Part shown: positions 55,790 to 64,000 of the stretch, one piece after another
How the letters are laid out: every line of letters begins with the position of its first letter
Numbering within the stretch: position 1 is the first letter of the stretch
Assembly: GCF_018413645.1 (NCBI RefSeq)
Contig: NZ_JAHCDA010000003.1
Location: 1 to 64,000 of the forward strand
DNA from: Roseococcus pinisoli
GTDB lineage: Bacteria > Pseudomonadota > Alphaproteobacteria > Acetobacterales > Acetobacteraceae
Direction of reading: 5' to 3'
DNA: 64,000 bases
Translations under genes and position numbers: made by a program
The notes under the pieces: model-generated
What the model saw: the letters and a program-made list of their open reading frames with translations, nothing else
Told to the model about the DNA's origin: nothing
Databases searched by the model: none

Positions 55790-55882
55790 GGAGGGGTGGC
55801 CGAGTGGCCGAAGGCGGCGGTTTGCTAAACCGTTAAAGGGAGATAATCCCTTTCGTGGGTTCGAATCCCATCCCCTCCGCCA
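55790..55882 (+). tRNA. tRNA-Ser (anticodon GCT); likely island attachment site
   Basis: Complete class II tRNA with a long variable arm. Acceptor GGAGGGG pairs with CCCCTCC; the anticodon loop TTGCTAA carries GCT; the variable arm is AGGGAGATAATCCCTT-like; the T arm contains GGTTCGAATCC; discriminator G and encoded CCA (55880-55882). Foreign phage-like DNA begins directly after its 3' end, as at tRNA attachment sites used by tyrosine integrases. Confidence 0.97.
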
Positions 55883-55925
55883 TCCCTTATTTTCTGCGAC
55901 TTACAGCGTGATTGAGGCTCTCCTG

Positions 55926-56040
55926 GGCTATACCCCGGAAACCACTTGTAGCGGCGGCTATACCTCCGGCTATACCTGAGCCCTATCGGTATCGCTCCAT
56001 CATCCCCCTCACCGAGGCCGGCTATACGCCCTGGCTATAC
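55926..56040 (+). repeat. Five direct copies of GGCTATAC next to tRNA-Ser
   Basis: Octamers at 55926-55933, 55956-55963, 55968-55975, 56020-56027 and 56033-56040, all in the same direction, with spacings of 30, 12, 52 and 13 bases. They lie between the tRNA 3' end and the first island gene. They could be arm-type integrase/excisionase sites or repressor sites; both are inferences from position. Confidence 0.6.
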
Positions 56041-56076
56041 TGGCAATAGGGGCCCGAAAGGGACCAGGGGACGACC

Positions 56077-56490
56077 TTGCAAGAGAGCTACACCTGCCAC
56101 GACGGCCGTAAAGTCGAACTCCTCTACGACGAGGAATGCTACGAAGCCCGGGCATTCACCTGCGAGGGGCAACGAATCGGAAGCCTAATCTTCCGCTTTA
56201 TTGAAAGCGGGCACGGCCCAGGCGAGCTGTATATCTCAAATTGCAACCTTGTCCCGTCTTGGACGCGGCAGGGTATCGGAGAGCAGCTCCTGCGCCTCGT
56301 CTACAGATCATCCGGGATTAGGCCGAGTGCTGCCGAGGATGACGGGCAAAAATTAGAAGATGGGTCTCACCTAACCGGTGATGCCCCAGGCTTCGTGGCT
56401 AAGATGCGATGCCTGGGACTGCTGCAGCCGTCTAAATGGAATTCCGGGGACCGGCCTTCATACCAGCCAGGATCTTCCGAAGACGAATGA
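56077..56490 (+). CDS. GNAT-like acetyltransferase fold protein (island)
   Basis: 137 residues, TTG start with AGGGGAC 5 bases upstream. The segment ISNCNLVPSWTRQGIGEQLLRLVY (about 50-73) resembles GNAT motif A with R-x-G-I-G. The C-terminal part is charged and without landmarks. It is the only plus-strand gene near the tRNA end of the island and converges with the small gene at 56432, overlapping its end by 59 bases. Confidence 0.55.
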   Translation: MQESYTCHDGRKVELLYDEECYEARAFTCEGQRIGSLIFRFIESGHGPGELYISNCNLVPSWTRQGIGEQLLRLVYRSSGIRPSAAEDDGQKLEDGSHLTGDAPGFVAKMRCLGLLQPSKWNSGDRPSYQPGSSEDE

Positions 56491-56602
56491 TACCGAAAGT
56501 CGAGTCGTTGCCGGGGCGGCTGCACATCTCGACGACGGTCTTGAGTAGGGCGGCCGGCACCACGACCATTTTTTCCATTGGCTGGCGGGGTGGGGTTTTC
56601 AT
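56432..56602 (-). CDS. Small hypothetical island protein
   Basis: 56 residues from ATG 56602, MKTPPRQPMEKMVVVPAALL..., with an amphipathic helical middle. The ATG overlaps the stop of the 30-residue frame upstream (ATATGA), so translation is coupled. A longer frame to 56782 is rejected because it overlaps two upstream genes. Function unknown. Last gene of the minus-strand operon. Confidence 0.55.
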   Translation of the reverse strand: MKTPPRQPMEKMVVVPAALLKTVVEMCSRPGNDSTFGIIRLRKILAGMKAGPRNSI

Positions 56603-56691
56603 ATCAACCGTACCCCGCACGCCCCAAGGGTTGCGACGATGAGCATCGCCGCCCCTGCCGCAGCTCGCATCCAGATTAGAGCGCGTTCCAT
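56599..56691 (-). CDS. 30-residue lipoprotein-like peptide
   Basis: ATG at 56691 shares a base with the stop of the preceding gene (TGATG) and has GGGAGGGG directly upstream. The peptide is MERALIWMRAAAGAAM then LIVATLGACGVRLI: a basic start, a hydrophobic stretch and LGAC, which fits a lipobox. It is too short for most gene callers. Such peptides in phage operons are often lysis (Rz1-like) or membrane-active proteins, but nothing here proves that. Confidence 0.5.
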   Translation of the reverse strand: MERALIWMRAAAGAAMLIVATLGACGVRLI

Positions 56692-57299
56692 CACGCCCCT
56701 CCCTCGGCCTGCTCCCCGGTCGTGGGCGTGCGGGCGCGGATGGTGCCGGCGATACTGCCCCACTCCTCCATCCACTCATCACCGTTGCCAGGATACTCGG
56801 TCACCCCGGTGCTGTGGTCGTAGATGCCGTGCTCGTTATCGTAGGCGGCTGCCCGCGCCTCGACGATCCGAGCACACGCCTCCCGCTCCTCCCTGCGCGC
56901 CTGCTCCAGCGCGGTGGCCAGCGCCGGGGCGTCGGGGATGGGGAGGGCGCGGGTAGCAGCGATTAATTCATGGGGCGTCATCCCCGGTGTGACCTTCACC
57001 AGCCGCTCATGCTGCGTAGACCACGCCATCCCCGCGACCGGGTTGTCCTCAACGACCTGCGCACACGCCTCCCTCATGGCCAGCGCCCCCGCAGCACTGG
57101 CGGCGCCGAGGTCGGCGTCGGTGCGGACGGGGCCGGCATAGACGCGACCGGCAAACACCTTGGCGCTGAGGAAACGGCCAGCGTGGTCCTTCCAGTTCTG
57201 GAGAGACGCGATCCAGCCGAAGGGTTGCCCATCAACGACGTGCCACCCATCCACATCCGCCCGCAGCGGCACGCCGTCCCAGGGCGTCGCGGCGCTCAT
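56691..57299 (-). CDS. Hypothetical phage-like protein
   Basis: 202 residues, ATG overlapping the stop of the upstream gene by 4 bases. The N-terminal part contains DGWHVVDGQPFGWIASLQNW, the middle MREACAQVVEDNPVAGMA, and the C-terminal half is helical with RREEREACARIVEARAAAY, a pattern frequent in phage proteins with REACA repeats. No function known. Confidence 0.7.
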   Translation of the reverse strand: MSAATPWDGVPLRADVDGWHVVDGQPFGWIASLQNWKDHAGRFLSAKVFAGRVYAGPVRTDADLGAASAAGALAMREACAQVVEDNPVAGMAWSTQHERLVKVTPGMTPHELIAATRALPIPDAPALATALEQARREEREACARIVEARAAAYDNEHGIYDHSTGVTEYPGNGDEWMEEWGSIAGTIRARTPTTGEQAEGGA

Positions 57300-57715
57300 G
57301 CGCGGGGCTCCAGGGCGGCGCGGGCATGGAACCGAGCGGCCTCACGGAACTTCGCGTGGCTGAGATCGTCCCCGTACATGGCGAGGACCATCCGCAATCC
57401 TGCCTCCAGCTCCGCGATGCGCGCGGCCTGGGCGTCGGTGTGGGCGCCCCAGGCGAGGATGGCAGCGGGGTTGGAGGCGGCGATGTGGGCCGCGTCATGG
57501 ACGCAGGCAGGATCATCGGCGACGTCTTCCGATGTGACCAGCGCAACGACGCGCTTCCCGTCTCTCACAGGCACCCAGGTGTAGCCGGCGGACTCGTAGT
57601 TCGCGACCTCCCAGTCGCCGGGCGAGAGATACTTCCCGTCCTTCCCTTTATGCCGCCAGGATTGGCCGCCGGCCTTCTTCGCCGCTTCGATCAGCGGGGT
57701 CGGGTCGAAGCTCAT
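57296..57715 (-). CDS. Ead/Ea22-like family phage protein
   Basis: 139 residues from ATG 57715. DDPACVHDAAHIAASNPAAILAWG (about 80-103) followed by a coiled AQAARIAELEAGL is the Ea22-like signature found in many phage early regions. Role unknown. The N-terminal part (WRHKGKDGKYLSPGDWEVAN) may be a separate small domain. Overlaps both neighbours by 4 bases. Confidence 0.65.
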   Translation of the reverse strand: MSFDPTPLIEAAKKAGGQSWRHKGKDGKYLSPGDWEVANYESAGYTWVPVRDGKRVVALVTSEDVADDPACVHDAAHIAASNPAAILAWGAHTDAQAARIAELEAGLRMVLAMYGDDLSHAKFREAARFHARAALEPRA

Positions 57716-58212
57716 GCCCCACCTCCCGCCGCGTAGGGCGAGGCGGCGAGCTGGGCCTTTCGGTTCTTGATCCAGCCCCGCCATTCGGGCACCCGGAGGT
57801 AGCCATCATGGCGGTAGTCACCCTCGACCCAAGACGGGTTAACCGGGTCGTGCGCCCATCCGATGCACGGCACGTCGACCCAGTGTCGAGGCCCCTTTCC
57901 GATCCACATGATGGTACGCGGCTGGGCCCGGCCGGAGGTCGGAACCCAGGTCTGCCCGACAGCGAACTCCGGCAGAATGTCGCCCGGCAGCATGGTCACG
58001 ACCGCCTCGCCGCGCAGGACGGCGCCGATGCGGGGGTGGAGGGTGGTCAGGGCGATGGCGATACCCTGGCGCATGGCGGACAAGCCGCCGGCCATTTCGG
58101 CATAGGCCATCGCGTGGTCGTAGGCGTCCCGCACTACCGCGTCCGGGATGAGGGCCGCCATCGCCTCGACGGCGGCGCGCTCGGTGTCCTGGGGTTGGGC
58201 TTTTTCGTTCAT
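57712..58212 (-). CDS. Hypothetical phage-like protein
   Basis: 166 residues from ATG 58212 (MNEKAQPQDTERA); the upstream ATG at 58233 lies inside the SD hairpin and is not preferred. Contains a helical N-terminal half and QTWVPTSGRAQPRTIMWIG, a short beta segment. Heads a coupled run of five genes down to 56432. Preceded by hairpin copy 1 and a palindrome at 58286. No family recognised. Confidence 0.65.
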   Translation of the reverse strand: MNEKAQPQDTERAAVEAMAALIPDAVVRDAYDHAMAYAEMAGGLSAMRQGIAIALTTLHPRIGAVLRGEAVVTMLPGDILPEFAVGQTWVPTSGRAQPRTIMWIGKGPRHWVDVPCIGWAHDPVNPSWVEGDYRHDGYLRVPEWRGWIKNRKAQLAASPYAAGGGA

Positions 58213-58216
58213 TATC

Positions 58217-58232
58217 TGACCCTCCTTGGTCA
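58217..58232 (-). promoter_or_regulatory. SD-in-loop RNA hairpin, copy 1
   Basis: Minus-strand TGACC-AAGGAG-GGTCA: 5 Watson-Crick pairs, hexaloop AAGGAG is the Shine-Dalgarno of the gene starting at 58212. Confidence 0.75.
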
Positions 58233-58265
58233 TCTGAATGATGTCTTCGTCGTAGCTTTGGCCGG

Positions 58266-58301
58266 CCTGGGTGCAAGAGAAATGCGTGCACCTGGGTGCA
58301 C
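58266..58301. promoter_or_regulatory. Palindromic operator-like site with adjacent half copy
   Basis: GTGCACC-TG-GGTGCAC at 58286-58301 (7-2-7 palindrome), with CCTGGGTGCA repeated at 58266-58275. The same palindrome recurs, reversed, at 63468. Both lie just upstream of hairpin-led minus-strand genes, so a shared island repressor is likely but unproven. Confidence 0.55.
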
Positions 58302-58305
58302 AGAA

Positions 58306-58536
58306 TCAGGTGTCGCGTCGAAACTTCAGGCCATTGAACCAACGCCTGATGCAGTACGATCGGGCGAGGCTGATCAGCGTGAACCAGGCGCCGATTTCCA
58401 GATGCGTGGAGAGGTTCTGGGGCGGTATGCCGACCATCGGGAAGACGACGAGCTGCGAGGCGATGGCCACACCGAAGCCGACGACTATGTTCGCGCCGCT
58501 CTCGACGAGAGACATAAAGCGGGTCTGACCACTCAT
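58306..58536 (-). CDS. DUF7220-type small membrane protein
   Basis: 76 residues with two hydrophobic segments (about 14-36 and 45-60). The sequence SLVESGANIVVGFGVAIASQ and FTLISLARSYCIRRWFN matches a family of two-helix phage proteins widespread in alphaproteobacterial prophages. Role unknown. Overlaps the upstream zinc-ribbon gene by 4 bases. Confidence 0.75.
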   Translation of the reverse strand: MSGQTRFMSLVESGANIVVGFGVAIASQLVVFPMVGIPPQNLSTHLEIGAWFTLISLARSYCIRRWFNGLKFRRDT

Positions 58537-58700
58537 CGAGCATGGCTCCTGATTTCGGCGGGGCCGATTGCGGGATGCGGCGGGGCCTCACAGACGGGGC
58601 AAGGCCACGCGATGAACCGTAGGCCTTTGGGTCGCTCTGCTCGGTAGACCTCGATGCCGCCGGTGCCGAGGCACGTCCAGCAGAACGGGGCCAGGATCAT
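58533..58700 (-). CDS. Small zinc-ribbon protein
   Basis: 55 residues, below 60 codons. MILAPFCWTCLGTGG opens with CxxC, and WPCPVCEAPPHP supplies a second CxxC 29 residues later, a zinc-ribbon layout typical of phage operons. Both ends overlap neighbours by 4 bases (ATGA), strong support that it is translated. Confidence 0.7.
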   Translation of the reverse strand: MILAPFCWTCLGTGGIEVYRAERPKGLRFIAWPCPVCEAPPHPAIGPAEIRSHAR

Positions 58701-59017
58701 ACCTTGCGGCTCCGCTGAATTGCGTTCACGGCGGTGATGAAGGCTCTGATCGTGGCCTTCATCAACTCCTTCTTACCATTCTCAGGCCGATCTGCGAGGA
58801 CCGCGTCAGTGGCCTCGTTGAAGACGTTCTGCTTGAGCAGTACATCGGCGTTCGTCAGCGCCCTGGCCCTAACATTCGTCGGGTCGCCCGGCTGTCCGAT
58901 GGACGCCTTGCCGTACCGGATGAGATCCCCGATGCTTTTGGCCTGATCGGTACGGGTCGTGTCTGGCGGCAGGTCCAGAGAGACAAGGAAATGAACTCGG
59001 CGGGTCTTCTTCGGCAT
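58697..59017 (-). CDS. Hypothetical island protein
   Basis: 106 residues, MPKKTRRVHFLVSLDLPPDTTRTD at the start; a lysine/asparagine-rich helical second half (FNEATDAVLADRPENGKKEL). Preceded by hairpin copy 2. No family recognised. Confidence 0.65.
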   Translation of the reverse strand: MPKKTRRVHFLVSLDLPPDTTRTDQAKSIGDLIRYGKASIGQPGDPTNVRARALTNADVLLKQNVFNEATDAVLADRPENGKKELMKATIRAFITAVNAIQRSRKV

Positions 59018-59022
59018 GCGAT

Positions 59023-59038
59023 CGGCCCTCCTTGGCCG
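59023..59038 (-). promoter_or_regulatory. SD-in-loop RNA hairpin, copy 2
   Basis: Minus-strand CGGCC-AAGGAG-GGCCG, five Watson-Crick pairs, 6 bases before the ATG at 59017. Confidence 0.75.
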
Positions 59039-59049
59039 TGGGGATCAGC

Positions 59050-59337
59050 TCAGCACCAGGGAAGCTGGGGCTGCTTCGGTGTTAGGGCGGAAAGCGGTGG
59101 GTGCACCACGAGCTTCAGGCCCGACTCCTTCAGTAGGACAACCATGTCCTCGTCCAAGTAGAATTTCATCTCCCGGTCGAAGGGAAATCCGACGACGACG
59201 TACTGCGAGAACTTCGGCGCGGTGTGGTACACGACGTCTCGCACGACACCCGACATGCCGATCTTCAGACGTGAGTCGGCCTCATTCCATCGACGTATGA
59301 CGATGACCTCCTTTCCGATGGCATCTGCGGTGATCAT
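59050..59337 (-). CDS. Hypothetical island protein
   Basis: 95 residues, MITADAIGKEVIVIRRWNEADSR then a beta-rich region (KIGMSGVVRDVVYHT, YVVVGFPFDREMKFYLDEDM), possibly a small SH3-like barrel. Overlaps the upstream gene by 4 bases. Family unknown. Confidence 0.65.
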   Translation of the reverse strand: MITADAIGKEVIVIRRWNEADSRLKIGMSGVVRDVVYHTAPKFSQYVVVGFPFDREMKFYLDEDMVVLLKESGLKLVVHPPLSALTPKQPQLPWC

Positions 59338-59531
59338 GCCGGCACCAGGTGTTCAGGCTTCCACCGGCTCAGGTGGACGGAGTCACGAGTTGGGTGTGTC
59401 CACACGACCTCGACCTCGCCCTTCACCCCGGGAGGCCCTACGACCTCCCCCTGCCATCCGGCGAACGACTTGAAGACCTTCACCTGGCTGTCGTGCAGCT
59501 TCACCTTCATGCCGACGGCAATCGTCGTCAT
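59334..59531 (-). CDS. Small beta-barrel (KOW/SH3-like) island protein
   Basis: 65 residues, MTTIAVGMKVKLHDSQVKVF, AGWQGEVVGPPGVKGEVEVVWTH: alternating strands with the G-x-V-x-G pattern of KOW-type barrels. ATG 59531 shares one base with the upstream stop (TGATG); a GTG one codon earlier is less likely. Confidence 0.6.
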   Translation of the reverse strand: MTTIAVGMKVKLHDSQVKVFKSFAGWQGEVVGPPGVKGEVEVVWTHPTRDSVHLSRWKPEHLVPA

Positions 59532-59797
59532 CACAGGGCCTTCACGAGGCCGAAGGTTGTGCCTTCGAACTTCTCGACCGACTTGCGCAGCGAGGCGAGC
59601 TTGGCCAGGCGCATCTCCTCAGCTCGCTTCTGGGCGGCTTCGAGGGTGAGGTGCCACTCCCGGCCTTCTCCGTGGTAGTGATGGTGAAGGGTGTCCTTCT
59701 CGCCCTTGAAGCGGATCATGTTGCCGCTCTGCTTGACCTCGCCGTCGAACGACCAGATGCCAGTCGTCAGGGCATGCTTGGTGATGAAGACGAGCAT
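59531..59797 (-). CDS. Hypothetical island protein
   Basis: 88 residues, MLVFITKHALTTGIWSFDGEV with a His-rich turn (LHHHYHGEGREWH) and a long C-terminal helix (EAAQKRAEEMRLAKLASLRKS). Pattern seen in short phage proteins. Starts at the TGATG overlap with the SANT-like gene. Confidence 0.6.
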   Translation of the reverse strand: MLVFITKHALTTGIWSFDGEVKQSGNMIRFKGEKDTLHHHYHGEGREWHLTLEAAQKRAEEMRLAKLASLRKSVEKFEGTTFGLVKAL

Positions 59798-60261
59798 CAC
59801 GCAGCATGACTCAGATCGAGAGTCGGGAGCGATGCCCGCTCTTTCTGCACAGCTTCATGGTCGCCGGTACGGGGCTTCAGGTCGAGCTTGAGCATCTGCG
59901 CGTAGACGGACCCGCAGTTGCGCCTCAGAGCGCCGGCGATGGTCTCGATAGAAGTGCGGGTGCCGTGCCCATTGCGCAGGAGTTCGTTCTCCTCTTCGGT
60001 CCAGGCGCGGCGGCTCTCGGGGCCGGCCCGTCCACCTTGGGCTGGAGACGTGCGGGAACGGCGCGAAGGCTGGGGGGTGAGGTTGGTAGCCTGCGTTGCT
60101 GGGGAGGCCTCCTCGGGTGTGAGGCGGGCCTTCAGCAGACTGCAGAGGCCGTCGATGGTCTCGGCCACACCGATCAGGTCGAGGACCTGGGCAGGATGGC
60201 CGGCATCCTGCTGGACGATCCACCCGTTGGGAGCAGTGACGATGACAATGTTCTTGGACAT
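59797..60261 (-). CDS. SANT/Myb-like DNA-binding protein
   Basis: 154 residues. N-terminal small domain (VIVTAPNGWIVQQDAGHPAQ); proline/arginine linker (about 60-85); C-terminal helix-turn-helix-like region AWTEEENELLRNGHGTRTSI with IAGALRRNCGSVYAQMLKL (about 86-128), where the spaced tryptophan/acidic start and the R-x-x-x-S-V-x-x-x helix resemble SANT/Myb or GcrA-type modules. Possible regulator of the island. Preceded by hairpin copy 3; its ATG directly follows the upstream stop. Confidence 0.65.
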   Translation of the reverse strand: MSKNIVIVTAPNGWIVQQDAGHPAQVLDLIGVAETIDGLCSLLKARLTPEEASPATQATNLTPQPSRRSRTSPAQGGRAGPESRRAWTEEENELLRNGHGTRTSIETIAGALRRNCGSVYAQMLKLDLKPRTGDHEAVQKERASLPTLDLSHAA

Positions 60262-61101
60262 TCAACCCTCCTTGGCTGCGTTGCGGACCTGCTCTTGGGC
60301 GAAGGCGATCGCGTCGTTGTACTGGCGGTCGCTGAACCCCTTGAAGCTCCCTGTGTAGGTGATGTGGGCCTGCAGGGCGTGCGGCAGGGCCTCCTTGTCG
60401 GTCCCCTTCTCTGTTGCCATGCCGGTGTCCAGATCGAAGCCGATGTTCCAGCCACCGTTGATGACTTGCGCCCTGATCCAGTTGCCCTGCTTCGTCGCAA
60501 CGACGCACCAGAGCGGTCCGACGCCATCAGCCAAGAAGGTCGAGTGTATCTTCAGCCGGGAAGGGTCACAGAGCTCGGTCGTACCAACGGCCTTCTCGAT
60601 GACACGGGAACTGATCTCCTCGTCGTCCTCGTCTTCTGCGGTGCCGTCGTCTTCGTCGTCCTCCCCCACTTGCAGGGGCCATAAACTGGCCCAGGTGTCA
60701 TGCCCCATGGGCGGGGCCGCACCGAGCGCGTCGAGCTCCTTGGCAATCTCGTGCAGCTCGTTCGCGTTGACGTTAGCGTCGCGCTGGTCGCCAACCGGGT
60801 TCTCGAGGTCGTCGTCGTACATCCAGGCGTTCTGCAGGAGGCCGCGCAGTAGGGTCTCGAGCTTCTGCTCCCGGGTCTCGACCGTGGGCTTCTCACGGAA
60901 GGCCATCAGCTCACGACCCGCCTTCGCGACCTCGTTGCAGTAAATCGCGAGGATCTTGCTGAAGCTGCCTTCCTGCGGCACCGCCTTCGACATGGCGCCC
61001 AGGCCCGCTGCGATGCTGGCGAGGCGGTCCCCTGCATAATCACGGTCGCACAACTGCTCGAACAGCAGCCGCTCTCCCTTGTCTTCCGGCGCGTCGGTCA
61101 T
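60262..61101 (-). CDS. Hypothetical island protein with acidic segment
   Basis: 279 residues from ATG 61101. N-terminal half helical (LASIAAGLGAMSKAVPQEG, SKILAIYCNEVAKAGRELM), central acidic stretch (EDDEDDGTAEDEDDEE, about 149-164), C-terminal half with WNIGFDLDTGMATEKG. It ends in AAKEG: the last codons are also the hairpin copy 3 of the next gene. No family recognised. Confidence 0.7.
   Translation of the reverse strand: MTDAPEDKGERLLFEQLCDRDYAGDRLASIAAGLGAMSKAVPQEGSFSKILAIYCNEVAKAGRELMAFREKPTVETREQKLETLLRGLLQNAWMYDDDLENPVGDQRDANVNANELHEIAKELDALGAAPPMGHDTWASLWPLQVGEDDEDDGTAEDEDDEEISSRVIEKAVGTTELCDPSRLKIHSTFLADGVGPLWCVVATKQGNWIRAQVINGGWNIGFDLDTGMATEKGTDKEALPHALQAHITYTGSFKGFSDRQYNDAIAFAQEQVRNAAKEG
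60263..60278 (-). promoter_or_regulatory. SD-in-loop RNA hairpin, copy 3
   Basis: Minus-strand CAGCC-AAGGAG-GGTTG (one G-U pair), lying inside the last codons of the upstream gene and directly before the ATG at 60261. Confidence 0.7.
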
Positions 61102-61105
61102 GATT

Positions 61106-61681
61106 TCAGCCCTCCTTGGCTGTGGTGGACACCCAGGTGCCGGACGCGACGACCTGAGCAAGCTTGTCGGCGGCCCAGGCGCGCATCAGCGGCGGGGCCT
61201 TGGTCAGTATCGGCAGAAGCTGCTGCTTCTCATTCAGATAGACGGGCGCAAACTTGGGATCGTGCAGCACGATCGAGCGCGTGTTCGAACAGAGGTCGGC
61301 GATCTTGATCGTGTGCGCTCGCCCGCTGCAGTTGCCGAGGCGGGCGGCTTCTCGGGCCTTGCGAGCTGCGCGGTTGCCGTGCTCGGGGCCGGTGAACTGG
61401 TCGGTGAGCTCCCACACCACATCAGCGACCTCGTGGCCGAAGATGGCCTGGATCGCCTGGTGCTCGACGGGCGTGTCCTCGACGACGTCATGCAGCAGCG
61501 CGGCCTGCAGCGTCACGGGATCGTCCGTGTAGCCGGTCACGATGTTGTGCACTTCGATCAGGTGGAAGACATAGGGCTCACCAGAATACTTGCGATTCTG
61601 ATAGCGGTGTGCCCGGTCGGCGAAGTCAATGGCGAAGTCCGCCGACTCGGTTCGTCTGAACAGCAACTTTCTCATGGACAT
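61106..61681 (-). CDS. MESH1-like (p)ppGpp hydrolase (HD domain)
   Basis: 191 residues from ATG 61681. HD-domain pattern of RelA/SpoT hydrolases and small alarmone hydrolases: AHRYQNRKYSGEPYVFHLIEV (24-44) with H40, AALLHDVVEDTP (60-71) with H64, D65, E68 and D69, and KIADLCSNTRSI (126-137) with D129 and N133. No synthetase, TGS or ACT part follows, so it is a stand-alone hydrolase. Substrate could be (p)ppGpp, (p)ppApp or NADPH as for other small enzymes of this type. Ends AKEG within hairpin copy 4. Preceded by hairpin copy 5. A role in neutralising alarmone-based phage defence is an inference. Confidence 0.8.
   Translation of the reverse strand: MSMRKLLFRRTESADFAIDFADRAHRYQNRKYSGEPYVFHLIEVHNIVTGYTDDPVTLQAALLHDVVEDTPVEHQAIQAIFGHEVADVVWELTDQFTGPEHGNRAARKAREAARLGNCSGRAHTIKIADLCSNTRSIVLHDPKFAPVYLNEKQQLLPILTKAPPLMRAWAADKLAQVVASGTWVSTTAKEG
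61107..61122 (-). promoter_or_regulatory. SD-in-loop RNA hairpin, copy 4
   Basis: Minus-strand CAGCC-AAGGAG-GGCTG, five Watson-Crick pairs, within the final codons of the hydrolase gene and 5 bases before the ATG at 61101. Confidence 0.75.
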
Positions 61682-61684
61682 TTT

Positions 61685-61702
61685 GCGACCCTCCTTGGCC
61701 AC
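61685..61702 (-). promoter_or_regulatory. SD-in-loop RNA hairpin, copy 5
   Basis: Minus-strand GTGGCC-AAGGAG-GGTCGC, six pairs with two G-U, 3 bases before the ATG at 61681. Confidence 0.7.
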
Positions 61703-61760
61703 GACGTCTGTCTTTCTTCTGGGCTGCCGCCTGCATATTGGCAAGAGGTATTTGGAGGTA

Positions 61761-61931
61761 TTACGGGTGATCCCCGTTGCAGCTCGGGCAGTGCAAGGGG
61801 CGCTCGCGCAGCTTTTGAAGGTCGACCAGCGCGTTCAGCAGCTCGTCGCGGTGGACGACCCAATTCACGAACCCTCCCGCGTGGTGGTCACGCAGGTAGC
61901 CGATCAGGTACTCGAGACGCTCATCGTCCAT
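61761..61931 (-). CDS. Small island protein with CxxC motif
   Basis: 56 residues: MDDERLEYLIGYLRDHH, FVNWVVHRDELLNALVDLQK, ending LHCPSCNGDHP, a Cys-x-x-Cys-x5-His tail that may bind zinc. ATG 61931 shares one base with the upstream stop (TAATG). It is shorter than 60 codons; the long plus-strand frame across it is a shadow. Confidence 0.65.
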   Translation of the reverse strand: MDDERLEYLIGYLRDHHAGGFVNWVVHRDELLNALVDLQKLRERPLHCPSCNGDHP

Positions 61932-62125
61932 TAGGAGGCTTCCTTGCGAGCGTGCGCGAGGGCCTTGGCCTTCGTGTCGAAATACTCGTTCTGGAGGTAG
62001 TCGCCATCCTCGTCGATGACGGAGCAGCGCCAGTCACCCGCACCGGTCTGCTGGATGTCCCAGCCGTTGCACTGGTAAGCGCCGTTCTGGTCGGGACCGG
62101 TCGGCTGGGAAATCTGCTGGCTCAT
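61931..62125 (-). CDS. Small hypothetical island protein
   Basis: 64 residues from ATG 62125: MSQQISQPTGPDQNGAYQCN, WRCSVIDEDGDYLQNEYFD, then a helix (KAKALAHARKEAS). The beta pattern with W and Y resembles small phage DUF proteins. The in-frame ATG at 62146 is within the hairpin region and is not preferred. Preceded by hairpin copy 6. Confidence 0.65.
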   Translation of the reverse strand: MSQQISQPTGPDQNGAYQCNGWDIQQTGAGDWRCSVIDEDGDYLQNEYFDTKAKALAHARKEAS

Positions 62126-62129
62126 CGTT

Positions 62130-62145
62130 CGACCCTCCTTGGCCA
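62130..62145 (-). promoter_or_regulatory. SD-in-loop RNA hairpin, copy 6
   Basis: Minus-strand TGGCC-AAGGAG-GGTCG, five pairs including two G-U, 4 bases before the ATG at 62125. Confidence 0.7.
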
Positions 62146-62386
62146 TGTGGTCGCCTTCGTGCCTGGTCTATCGAAGTGTGCAAGATGAAATACGCAGGCG
62201 CTTGCTTTAGCCTGATAACGACGCAACGAATCTGCTGTCGAACGTCTATGCGCTGCACCCCAACAGATTGATTCGGCTTTCTAAAATTTCTGGGGTTTCT
62301 GAGGATGTCGGGGGCAACGGACACTTCGCCTATTGCAGCTAAACCCAGAATCGGCCTCTAATTGGGGCTCTCAGGGGCGACCGGAT
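62146..62386. other. Divergent island promoter region
   Basis: About 240 bases, more AT-rich than its surroundings, between the minus-strand gene at 62125 and the plus-strand gene at 62419. No tRNA or convincing frame. It must contain promoters in both directions, but no clear -35/-10 pair could be assigned. Confidence 0.4.
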
Positions 62387-62409
62387 CTTCCTGCTTTTTT
62401 AGGAAGGAG
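62387..62409 (+). promoter_or_regulatory. SD-sequestering hairpin before the plus-strand membrane peptide
   Basis: CTTCCT (62387-62392) pairs with AGGAAG (62401-62406) across an 8-base T-rich loop, burying the start of the AGGAAGGAG ribosome site of the gene at 62419. The T-run could also make it a weak attenuator. Confidence 0.4.
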
Positions 62410-62418
62410 TCCGCTTGC

Positions 62419-62601
62419 ATGTCGCCCCTCATCCACTTCATCGCCTACTTTTTGCTTCTGGCCGGCTACAGCGTGTTCGCCGTGCATTACGCCGTGGAGG
62501 CCTTTCACCAGGCTTTCCCCCAGCACCAAGCTCGTGACGAGACGCCGGCGCCTTCCGAGCCGGAACCGCCCGTGATCAGCATCCGTCATCATGTGGATTG
62601 A
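62419..62601 (+). CDS. Small single-helix membrane protein (island)
   Basis: 60 residues: MSPLIHFIAYFLLLAGYSVF forms one transmembrane helix (about 4-28), followed by a charged tail rich in Pro and Glu. AGGAAGGAG lies 9 bases before the ATG. It is one of only two plus-strand genes in the island, and its 3' end overlaps the end of the convergent gene by 26 bases. Function unknown. Confidence 0.55.
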   Translation: MSPLIHFIAYFLLLAGYSVFAVHYAVEAFHQAFPQHQARDETPAPSEPEPPVISIRHHVD

Positions 62602-62797
62602 GTGGCCTCGGGAAGGCGGCCCGTATGTGCTCTGGGCCTCCCCACACAGCGACAGTCCGCTCTTTGCCGAAGATCACGCACTTGCGCGGGGTCGGCCGGG
62701 AGCCGTCCGCCCAGCCCTCCTTCTGGTAGAGCGTCAGCAGCTTGTGGGCGAGCAGCAGGTCGTCGCTGTCTTTCGCGTGATAGATGGTGATCTTCAT
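62576..62797 (-). CDS. Small hypothetical island protein
   Basis: 73 residues from ATG 62797: MKITIYHAKDSDDLLLAHKL, YQKEGWADGSRPTPRKCVIF, VWGGPEHIRAAFPRPL. A compact alpha/beta fold is likely. Frame continues upstream to 62938 but overlaps the next gene. Preceded by hairpin copy 7. Confidence 0.6.
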   Translation of the reverse strand: MKITIYHAKDSDDLLLAHKLLTLYQKEGWADGSRPTPRKCVIFGKERTVAVWGGPEHIRAAFPRPLNPHDDGC

Positions 62798-62799
62798 GG

Positions 62800-62817
62800 C
62801 CGGCCCTCCTTGGTCGG
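62800..62817 (-). promoter_or_regulatory. SD-in-loop RNA hairpin, copy 7
   Basis: Minus-strand CCGACC-AAGGAG-GGCCGG: five pairs and one A-C mismatch, the weakest copy; 2 bases before the ATG at 62797. Confidence 0.6.
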
Positions 62818-62825
62818 TTCGATTG

Positions 62826-63440
62826 TCAGGACCACCACGTGCAAACGTAGGGGCGGAGCTGCTTCCAGTCTCCGAAGCGGAGCTCCTCGGCGATAAGCAG
62901 GATGACCTCGGGTGGCAGCGGCACGGGCGCGTGGCCATGATCTTCGACGTAGCGCTTGCGGTCGCTGATGTTCGAGTAGTGCTCCAGCTTCTCGCCGGTC
63001 ACCGGGTCCATCCAGTTGAGGTAAGGGTAGATCGGGACGGGCAGCTCCTTGACCACGGTCACCAGCGGATCTTCCAGGCGCTGGGCCTGGACCTCCGTGT
63101 AATCGAGGATGTCATCGAACCGGAACCAATAGGTGGCCTGGCTGGGCGGTATGATCAGGCTCAGCCCCCCATCCGTGTCGGTGTACTCGGCGTACCGCAC
63201 CGTCTCCGAGAAGGTCTTGGGGTAGCGCTCCCGATCCTTCTCGCTCATGTGCTGGTGGAGGCAATCGAAGCCGAGCTGTGACCAGCCCCTCTCCTTGCTG
63301 TCGGCCTGGCGCCTGTAGTGCCCTCTCACGAAGGCATCGACCTCACCCGGCTTGTCGTCCGTGTACAGGCGCTGGTCGAGCCAGGGCCGGTCCGGATGCA
63401 CCATGCCGTAGCCCATTGCCTTGTGAATTCGTGTGCTCAT
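62826..63440 (-). CDS. Hypothetical island protein
   Basis: 204 residues from ATG 63440: MSTRIHKAMGYGMVHPDRPWL, a central QLGFDCLHQHMSEKDRERYPK, and an aromatic-rich C-terminus ending KQLRPYVCTWW. No family recognised. The longer frame to 63584 would read through the palindrome and the preceding gene and is rejected. Preceded by hairpin copy 8. Confidence 0.65.
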   Translation of the reverse strand: MSTRIHKAMGYGMVHPDRPWLDQRLYTDDKPGEVDAFVRGHYRRQADSKERGWSQLGFDCLHQHMSEKDRERYPKTFSETVRYAEYTDTDGGLSLIIPPSQATYWFRFDDILDYTEVQAQRLEDPLVTVVKELPVPIYPYLNWMDPVTGEKLEHYSNISDRKRYVEDHGHAPVPLPPEVILLIAEELRFGDWKQLRPYVCTWWS

Positions 63441-63444
63441 CGTT

Positions 63445-63460
63445 CGACCCTCCTTGGCCG
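63445..63460 (-). promoter_or_regulatory. SD-in-loop RNA hairpin, copy 8
   Basis: Minus-strand CGGCC-AAGGAG-GGTCG (one G-U), 4 bases before the ATG at 63440; nearly identical to copy 6 including the GTCGAACGATGAGC context. Confidence 0.75.
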
Positions 63461-63467
63461 TGGTTTC

Positions 63468-63483
63468 GTGCACCCAGGTGCAC
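63468..63483. promoter_or_regulatory. Palindromic operator-like site, second copy
   Basis: GTGCACC-CA-GGTGCAC, the reverse complement of the site at 58286-58301. It lies 28 bases upstream of the start at 63440 and 5 bases after the preceding stop codon. Confidence 0.55.
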
Positions 63484-63487
63484 AGTC

Positions 63488-63733
63488 TTAATTTCCTTGC
63501 CGTGACCTCAGCCAGGCCCGGCCAATGTCTGTCAGACCCCATCCTGATGCGGTCGTCCGACTGGCGACCAGAGGGCCGCGCCAAGCCACCAGGCCATCGA
63601 CGGCCAGGTCGTTGAGAAGGCTCAGCTCGGTCGGATCGTCCGTGCGGAACAGTTCGGCTGCGGCCGCAAGTCGGGTGAGCATCGGGCGGATCTCCCCCTC
63701 AGTTCGTAGGAAGTCGTCATTCGCGGGCTTCAC
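63488..63733 (-). CDS. Winged-helix-like small protein (island)
   Basis: 81 residues from GTG 63733, which overlaps the upstream stop (GTGA). LSLLNDLAVDGLVAWRGPLV and GWGLTDIGRAWLRSRQ (about 45-80) resemble the recognition helix and wing of winged-helix proteins. DNA-binding is inferred. The ATG at 63775 would overlap the preceding gene more deeply. Confidence 0.55.
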   Translation of the reverse strand: MKPANDDFLRTEGEIRPMLTRLAAAAELFRTDDPTELSLLNDLAVDGLVAWRGPLVASRTTASGWGLTDIGRAWLRSRQGN

Positions 63734-63996
63734 GCGAGTTCCTTCGAAATATTCTCTCGGGCCTTTTGCTCCCACTGACGAACTCGGGCCATGTCGGTTC
63801 GGAAAATGCAGTCAGCCGCCAAGAAGGTCCCCAGAAACGCCTTGCGGCCGGCATTGAACTTCTCCGGTGACAAGTGGCTGTACTCCTCCCGCAGACGCTC
63901 CGTGTTGCGGTCGAAATAGGGGCTGGCAAGCGGCTCGAGGTCGAGGTCGAGGAACCAGGAGCCCCATCGGTTCATCATGGGCCGGACGGTTCGCAT
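63730..63996 (-). CDS. Hypothetical island protein, start uncertain at window edge
   Basis: 88 codons from ATG 63996; MMNRWGSW at 63978 is another possible start, and the frame may continue beyond the right edge. Contains WFLDLDLEPLASPYFDRNTE, NAGRKAFLGTFLAADC and a charged end. Its stop overlaps the next GTG start. Function unknown. Confidence 0.55.
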   Translation of the reverse strand: MRTVRPMMNRWGSWFLDLDLEPLASPYFDRNTERLREEYSHLSPEKFNAGRKAFLGTFLAADCIFRTDMARVRQWEQKARENISKELA

Positions 63997-64000
63997 TCCG

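Follow-up and report, generated by a model that had tools for sequence, protein, structure and literature searches.

What reads a Shine-Dalgarno (SD) sequence that is displayed, gene after gene, in the loop of a small RNA hairpin? The question is raised by the end of a 64,000-nucleotide stretch of the Roseococcus pinisoli genome (positions 1-64000 of contig C6, NZ_JAHCDA010000003.1, in a genome of 4.79 Mb; "the window" throughout, with coordinates beyond 64000 lying outside it in the same numbering). Here, eight hairpins precede genes in the left end (55883-64000) of a prophage of ~98 kb (C6:55883-153981), called the island below. We interpret the hairpins as operators of a phage-encoded Csr-type translational regulon that represses the phage's own non-structural genes, a reading to which we assign a probability of about 0.7.

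Covarying hairpins around the Shine-Dalgarno sequence

The eight hairpins lie on the minus strand and all share the motif CC[AAGGAG]GG, as the initial annotation, made from this DNA alone, had described. Six of the positions it gave are exact and two are off by one, the true starts being 61686 and 62801. Hairpin 1 (58217-58232, TGACC[AAGGAG]GGTCA) heads the open reading frame (ORF) 57712-58212 and the overlapping ORFs 57296-57715 and 56691-57299, and hairpin 2 (59023-59038, CGGCC[AAGGAG]GGCCG) heads ORF 58697-59017 with the overlapping ORFs 58533-58700 and 58306-58536. Below hairpin 3 (60263-60278, CAGCC[AAGGAG]GGTTG), ORF 59797-60261 is followed by the overlapping ORFs 59531-59797, 59334-59531 and 59050-59337. 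Hairpin 4 (61107-61122, CAGCC[AAGGAG]GGCTG) heads ORF 60262-61101, and hairpin 5 (61686-61701, TGGCC[AAGGAG]GGTCG) heads ORF 61106-61681, which contains an HD_4 domain (PF13328, E 7e-15) and may encode a nucleotide hydrolase. Hairpin 6 (62130-62145, TGGCC[AAGGAG]GGTCG) stands before ORF 61931-62125 and the overlapping ORF 61761-61931. Hairpin 7 (62801-62816, CGACC[AAGGAG]GGCCG), which as reported is the only copy with an A-C mismatch, heads ORF 62576-62797, and hairpin 8 (63445-63460, CGGCC[AAGGAG]GGTCG) heads ORF 62826-63440. The string CCAAGGAGGG occurs 10 times in the window against 0.17 expected, and eight of these occurrences are the hairpin copies.

Compensatory change had been claimed for these stems, but the eight copies by themselves are no proof of it: their covariation score was matched by 37 of 500 shuffles, and both sides change in two of the five pairs. 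The eight are under-powered, and the claim is strong because the whole prophage was taken in. We defined a site as ANGGAG (N = A, C or T) on the coding strand with ATG or GTG 2-13 bases past the loop. A hairpin was counted wherever four or more uninterrupted base pairs enclose the six-base loop, with the expectation taken from permuted 3' arms. Across the prophage 37 of 62 such start-proximal sites form a hairpin, against 6.4 expected; the 37 include seven of the window's eight, hairpin 7 being left uncounted for its mismatch, and further hairpins lie outside the window, from C6:65599 to 153458. The 62 sites, which had not been chosen for pairing, were aligned without gaps. Their covariation score was 0.567, against 0.193 (sd 0.030) in shuffled alignments, of which none in 500 came up to it; with the 3' arm shifted out of register the score was at most 0.174. 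Pairing cells made up 69.3% of the alignment, against 45.0% when shuffled, and each of the three outer pairs shows all six standard pair types. Double changes occur in all five pairs, a count that is not above that in the shuffles. Outside the prophage, 75.7 kb of flanking host DNA (read on both strands) contain one hairpin in 38 sites. That the hairpins are real is, in our judgment, close to certain. An operator acting at the DNA level was rejected on three grounds: the asymmetry of the loop, the placing of the sites at start codons on the coding strand, and stems that are freely variable.

Kin of the prophage are Rhodobacter phage RcZahn and Rhizobium phages RHph_TM16 and RHph_Y1_11 (TM16 and Y1_11 below), with the Stenotrophomonas DLP phages and Vibrio phage KarBoss more distant; other related records carry our handles (G385 and the like). 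The invariant AAGGAG loop closed by CC/GG that was claimed earlier holds for the eight window copies. Prophage-wide, however, the loop is A[A/C/T]GGAG and not AAGGAG alone, and the closing CC/GG is dispensable (e.g., CGAAA[AAGGAG]TTTCG and CAGCA[ATGGAG]TGCTG). A at loop position 1 is needed for the hairpin excess, since B-NGGAG sites show none (53 hairpins against 53.5 expected, coding strands summed over 20 phages with KarBoss left out). Start-proximal AGGGAG sites carry no stem of at least 4 bp in the island, RcZahn or TM16 (0/8, 0/6 and 0/4, respectively), and A.GGA[A/C/T] loops number 1 against 1.6 expected in RcZahn and in TM16 each. ACGGAG, a weaker SD, is common as a loop in the Rhizobium phages TM16 and Y1_11. 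When 24 loop geometries were compared on both strands of 21 phages (stem>=5), the top one had two bases before GGAG and none after (133 vs 42.8 expected); the next, one base wider on each side (3 and 1; 82 vs 42.5), is explained by the same helix being read one pair out. Published work describes the RsmE/CsrA operator as a short stem that carries an ANGGAN hexaloop (PMC7652899, PMC3791407), and the AAGGAG loop fits that code, as had been pointed out. The prophage sites likewise consist of an ANGGAN hexaloop and a short stem overlapping the SD. They suit the ribosome and the CsrA code at once, because GGAG serves the former and A1 together with the hexaloop serves the latter.

A CsrA-like gene in the same prophage

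The regulon under a CsrA-like protein that was first proposed from the window, alongside a nuclease and a more speculative anti-defence switch, is still the best reading, and the element itself encodes such a protein outside the window. The gene, g113 (C6:132581-132877, minus strand, 98 aa), lies directly downstream of a PPDK-like gene (g114, C6:132891-135011, minus strand, also outside the window) and is the proposed reader. CsrA (PF02599) is its sole Pfam match at E<=10 (E 1.8e-5, 25.1 bits), and likewise the sole Pfam match for RcZahn gene 7 (4.2e-4), the TM16 gene (0.17) and, in DLP5 (0.23) and KarBoss (0.01), the neighbouring genes. With a profile built from three members, 21 of 22 phage records each gave a single match to the gene (E<=10, DLP5 being counted twice as G396 and W03), mostly below 1e-11; the weakest matches were those of DLP5 (7e-5), G398 (5e-5) and KarBoss (0.006), and the same search gave no CsrA-like match in G388, a 71.8-kb record. 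Of the 21 family members, 19 match PF02599 at E<=1, the best at 3.5e-7. A PDB profile search gave 11 matches at E<=10, every one of them a CsrA/Rsm protein (E 0.0017-0.099), and a single hhalign comparison gave E 1.7e-5 and a probability of 78 over 26 C-terminal columns. The homology of g113 to the CsrA family is significant by profile methods. The corresponding genes in RcZahn, TM16 and Y1_11 are annotated as "hypothetical protein".

Inspection of the 21-member alignment revealed that A74 is invariant and that P75 and R82 are each present in 20 of 21 members. These residues align with CsrA A36, P37 and R44, the last of which is important in RNA binding (PMC7652899). At the position of the CsrA contact residue L4 in strand 1, g113 has M and the family is variable, and ~37 extra residues separate the N-terminal strands from the RNA-contact segment. 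K occupies the R44 position in two hairpin-poor phages, G385 and KarBoss. A link between this exchange and hairpin scarcity is suggestive only, since DLP5, G398, G402 and G391 keep R and are hairpin-poor too.

Among the island genes, compared by BLAST with a simple score, g113 tracks the hairpins best, being found in 13/13 hairpin-rich and 3/6 hairpin-poor phages; four tail genes come next (6/13 and 0/6). The host (G000) has no recognisable csrA in a six-frame PF02599 search, which also misses the divergent phage gene, and it is not among the 30 of 144 genomes of its class that score above the PF02599 cut-off. From sequence, the CsrA-like protein is very probably the reader of the hairpins.

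Layout of the proposed regulon and other readings

Hairpins head blocks of overlapping genes. For these counts a hairpin was four unbroken pairs or four of five; the gene calls come from a script made for this analysis, the borders of the structural module are our own and most gene roles derive from one profile match each. Two of the 35 hairpin genes overlap the gene upstream, against 40 of the 72 other non-structural genes (p 2e-7), and the 35 are followed by an overlapping gene (19), a gene with its own hairpin (9) or neither (8). Hairpin-bearing genes include many small accessory ORFs and those for a UvsX-like recombinase, the PPDK-like protein and a phosphatase-like protein. A hairpin, or a chain of overlaps leading back to one, is found for 64/107 non-structural and 1/35 structural genes. 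The structural module is nearly hairpin-free, with 1/37 in the island, where it spans 33 of 98 kb, and 0/15, 0/13 and 0/14 in RcZahn, TM16 and Y1_11, respectively. Per-site Fisher tests of this avoidance give 0.035, 0.034, 0.57 and 1.0 for the island, RcZahn, TM16 and Y1_11, because ANGGAG sites are themselves scarce in the module.

The architecture extends beyond this prophage. In 22 phages (the prophage and 21 relatives), 215 hairpins were found at 1274 sites, against 37.2 expected, and 15 of the 22 show an excess at p<0.01. The census took in 20 of 77 kb of G392, DLP5 minus 8.2 kb and nearly the whole of the other records, with G388 left out. For KarBoss, whose pieces entered the hairpin census, the closing-pair count and the scan of other geometries in mixed orientation, a count of both strands gave no hairpin at 47 ANGGAG sites. 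In DLP5, G398, KarBoss, G402, G385 and G391 no other GGA loop geometry was clearly enriched (stem>=5, any GGA), in a scan that is insensitive, since it also missed the RcZahn array. Orthologues of some island genes carry a hairpin (stem of at least 4 bp) with a different stem, namely g110 (10/20), the PPDK-like g114 (6/20) and g111 (3/20), and many others lack it; gene by gene, the array persists while its sites move between genes. In a wider sample of capsid-matching viral stretches (80 of 131; 90 loci, with fetched flanks that are mostly structural region), hairpins stand at 33/523 ANGGAG sites, against 0/137 on the other strand and 19/1226 for other loops. At start-proximal ANGGAG sites of G398 (L169-L173) the closing pair is rarer than expected (12/90 vs 25.6), as if hairpins were avoided.

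We propose the following mechanism. Without the CsrA-like protein, the SD would be displayed in the hexaloop A-N-G-G-A-G of a short, evolving stem and would be usable by the ribosome. The prophage protein would bind the loop in its stem context, compete with the 30S subunit and exclude it. The head gene of each block would thereby be turned down and the remaining genes would follow by translational coupling; since a hairpin typically stands at the head of overlapping genes, one site could control a whole block. Repression is the probable direction of control. Build-up of the protein would turn down non-structural synthesis and leave the ribosomes to structural mRNAs. Because the structural genes are spared, a non-structural-to-structural shift suggests itself as the use of the system, a timing role that we hold tentatively, at slightly less than even odds. 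An unrelated protein would then do here much what RegA does in T4. Feedback may also operate, as the CsrA-like gene begins 13 bp behind the hairpin-headed PPDK-like gene.

Several observations weigh against this reading. With 25.1 bits, g113 falls below the PF02599 cut-off (27 bits), for which reason we call it CsrA-like and not a member, and none of the 22 phage records exceeds the cut-off. In the PF02599 search 14 of the 22 records match only at E<=10, where 9 of 14 control genomes match too. The strong part of the g113 match is confined mainly to the C-terminal half. The correlation of protein score with hairpin excess (Spearman 0.83, or 0.73 with hairpin fraction; n=20) is confounded by kinship. 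Seven phages without a hairpin excess at p<0.01 carry the gene (G385, G391, G402, G398, DLP5, KarBoss and the partly read G392), so the protein does not require the array. In the island A.GGA[A/C/T] loops show a small excess (4 vs 1.1 expected), and the CsrA-like gene has no hairpin of its own. At most orthologues the hairpin is not kept (g57 1/19, g61 1/17, g108 0/19, g90 0/10, g131 0/5 and g32 0/4). Four phages with canonical CsrA have no such array, save for a weak signal on the plus strand of Pseudomonas phage PA8 (L185; 3/12 ANGGAG sites, p 0.009, and 4/43 ANGGAN sites, p 0.002, in 30 tests with 50 of 63.7 kb covered); a general hairpin rule for canonical-CsrA phages was rejected as unsupported by these four. 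Finally, CsrA can also activate or stabilise mRNAs (PMC7652899).

This last point opens an alternative in which a CsrA-like protein does read the hairpins and activates or stabilises the mRNAs, or in which the sites form a sponge that titrates the protein from host mRNAs. GGA-rich RNAs can titrate CsrA (PMC7652899), and a pair of tandem ANGGAG hairpins at C6:153458 and 153494 (minus strand, 36 nt apart), upstream of a helix-turn-helix gene (153054-153413), lacks a start codon at the usual distance and is possibly a two-site leader. Apart from this pair, the island has no site cluster that would resemble a CsrB-like sponge RNA. We nevertheless consider activation or titration unlikely. Each site coincides exactly with the SD of a gene of its own, an arrangement that blocks 30S binding in known cases, and since no host csrA is recognisable, a host Csr regulon that could be titrated is not evident.

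An explanation that needs no protein, in which the hairpin holds the SD single-stranded in its loop for efficient ribosome loading on phage mRNAs, appears quite unlikely. In its favour, the stem is short, and when the sites were folded as RNA within 96 nt of context, the mean probability of an unpaired loop was 0.84 for those with a hairpin and 0.51 for the remaining start-proximal ones, a difference that is partly by construction since the hairpin sites were picked by their stems. However, pairing with the ribosome requires neither A1 nor a loop of exactly six bases, yet B-NGGAG has no excess and the hexaloop stands out; TM16 and Y1_11 use ACGGAG in spite of its weakness; and the structural genes, which would be expected to need high expression, are almost devoid of hairpins.

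There is a slim chance that another phage or host RNA-binding protein or nuclease reads the hairpins, either a RegB-like enzyme cutting GGAG, as the initial annotation had also suggested, or a RegA-like repressor. T4 RegB cleaves at GGAG within early translation initiation regions, and ~30 T4 mRNAs are under repression by RegA (PMC3014915), a phage-encoded control of many initiation regions that resembles the system proposed here. The proteins are unrelated, however, and neither a RegB nor a RegA regulon was supported: PF10715 and PF01818 each gave 0/10 matches in 10 genomes or records at E<=10. Strong T4 RegB sites are moreover described as having an A-rich 3' side and RegA sites as unstructured (PMC3014915), and by the simple score no island protein follows the hairpins as g113 does, with the four tail genes coming close. 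Least of all can the array be one leader copied many times, its likeness being due to recent duplication: TGGCC/GGTCG or CGGCC/GGTCG is common to several copies, but all five pairs vary, the 62 sites comprise 54 distinct 16-mers and the same architecture recurs in 15/22 phages, which leaves this explanation practically no probability.

Known systems and the prophage

The proposed Csr-type regulon of the phage's own genes resembles repression by CsrA, RsmA and RsmE in its loop code and hexaloop, its short stem, its overlap with the SD and the A36-P37...R44 RNA-contact segment kept in g113. It differs in that the protein is phage-encoded and highly divergent, with the ~37-residue insertion before the C-terminal strands, and in that dozens of covarying sites lie in the same element, in a host without a recognisable csrA. 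RsmN/RsmF offers a parallel for the insertion: this relative of CsrA has an extra helix that follows the N-terminal strands and precedes the RNA-contact segment, and one RNA bound by RsmN is a hairpin whose loop reads AAGGAU (PMC3791407). The insertion in g113 is longer and of another sequence, and RsmN and RsmF are weak matches in the PDB profile search (E 0.08-0.1).

Cluster K mycobacteriophages carry Start-Associated Sequences (SAS), 13-mers that include an SD and are well conserved; their function is described as unknown (PMC3203893). Like the prophage hairpins, they recur as SD elements whose outer parts show inverted symmetry (GGG...CCC), sit a few bases upstream of start codons, keep to the non-structural half and nearly always have one orientation (PMC3203893). 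The SAS 13-mer GGGATAGGAGCCC is conserved around a 7-base centre and is presented without a known reader, whereas the prophage sites have a six-base loop and freely covarying stems of varying sequence, and a candidate reader is encoded with them.

Phage-borne csrA genes are also on record. They were found in 30 of 2517 phages (PMC7366521), and knock-down of one phage csrA led to smaller plaques, in a report that deals with phage PTXU04 and calls the role of that csrA previously untested (PMC11879866). Vibriophage J26, which like the prophage encodes a PPDK, has an ORF99 annotated as CsrA and discussed as acting on host CRISPR, next to a tyrosine phosphatase, ORF100 (PMC12038007). Host targets are proposed in these three papers, and the parts available to us report no target hairpins in the phage's own genes. 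A search by title and abstract, with subscription papers outside its scope, turned up no paper that places CsrA-type operators in the genes of the phage itself, and the words CsrA, hairpin and Shine-Dalgarno are absent from the main texts of the RcZahn and DLP3 papers.

We lean slightly towards a broader view, in which a lineage of ~100-kb phages runs its lytic programme via a private, self-targeted Csr system. This system, built from a rapidly evolving phage CsrA and dozens of SD hairpins with covarying stems, would reach ~60% of the non-structural genes via coupled blocks (64/107 here) and would be an independent counterpart of RegA. If so, phage-borne CsrA proteins would act on the phage's own mRNAs instead of the host's. 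The sequence evidence points to those mRNAs as dedicated targets; the code it yields can be tested, and a candidate reader and natural variants come with it. The prophage system may also serve as a model for the SAS elements, and a large set of naturally covarying CsrA-type operators is gained.

The prophage is bounded by two tRNA-Ser(GCT) genes. The left one (55790-55882, plus strand) is the left attachment site, and 67 bp of it, from 55816, are repeated exactly at C6:154011 in the second, at C6:153982 outside the window. At gathering scores this left-end tRNA was the sole match to a known RNA family. Of the genes called between the two tRNAs, 142 are read from the minus strand and only two from the plus strand. 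Besides the UvsX-like recombinase and the PPDK-like protein, the prophage codes for an integrase, a DnaB-like helicase, a primase and a family A DNA polymerase. The PPDK-like and phosphatase-like genes adjoin the CsrA-like gene in the prophage, RcZahn, TM16 and Y1_11 alike. Near the right end, on the opposite strand, lies a gene for an exonuclease VII small subunit (PF02609, 63 bits; C6:152254-152487, plus strand).

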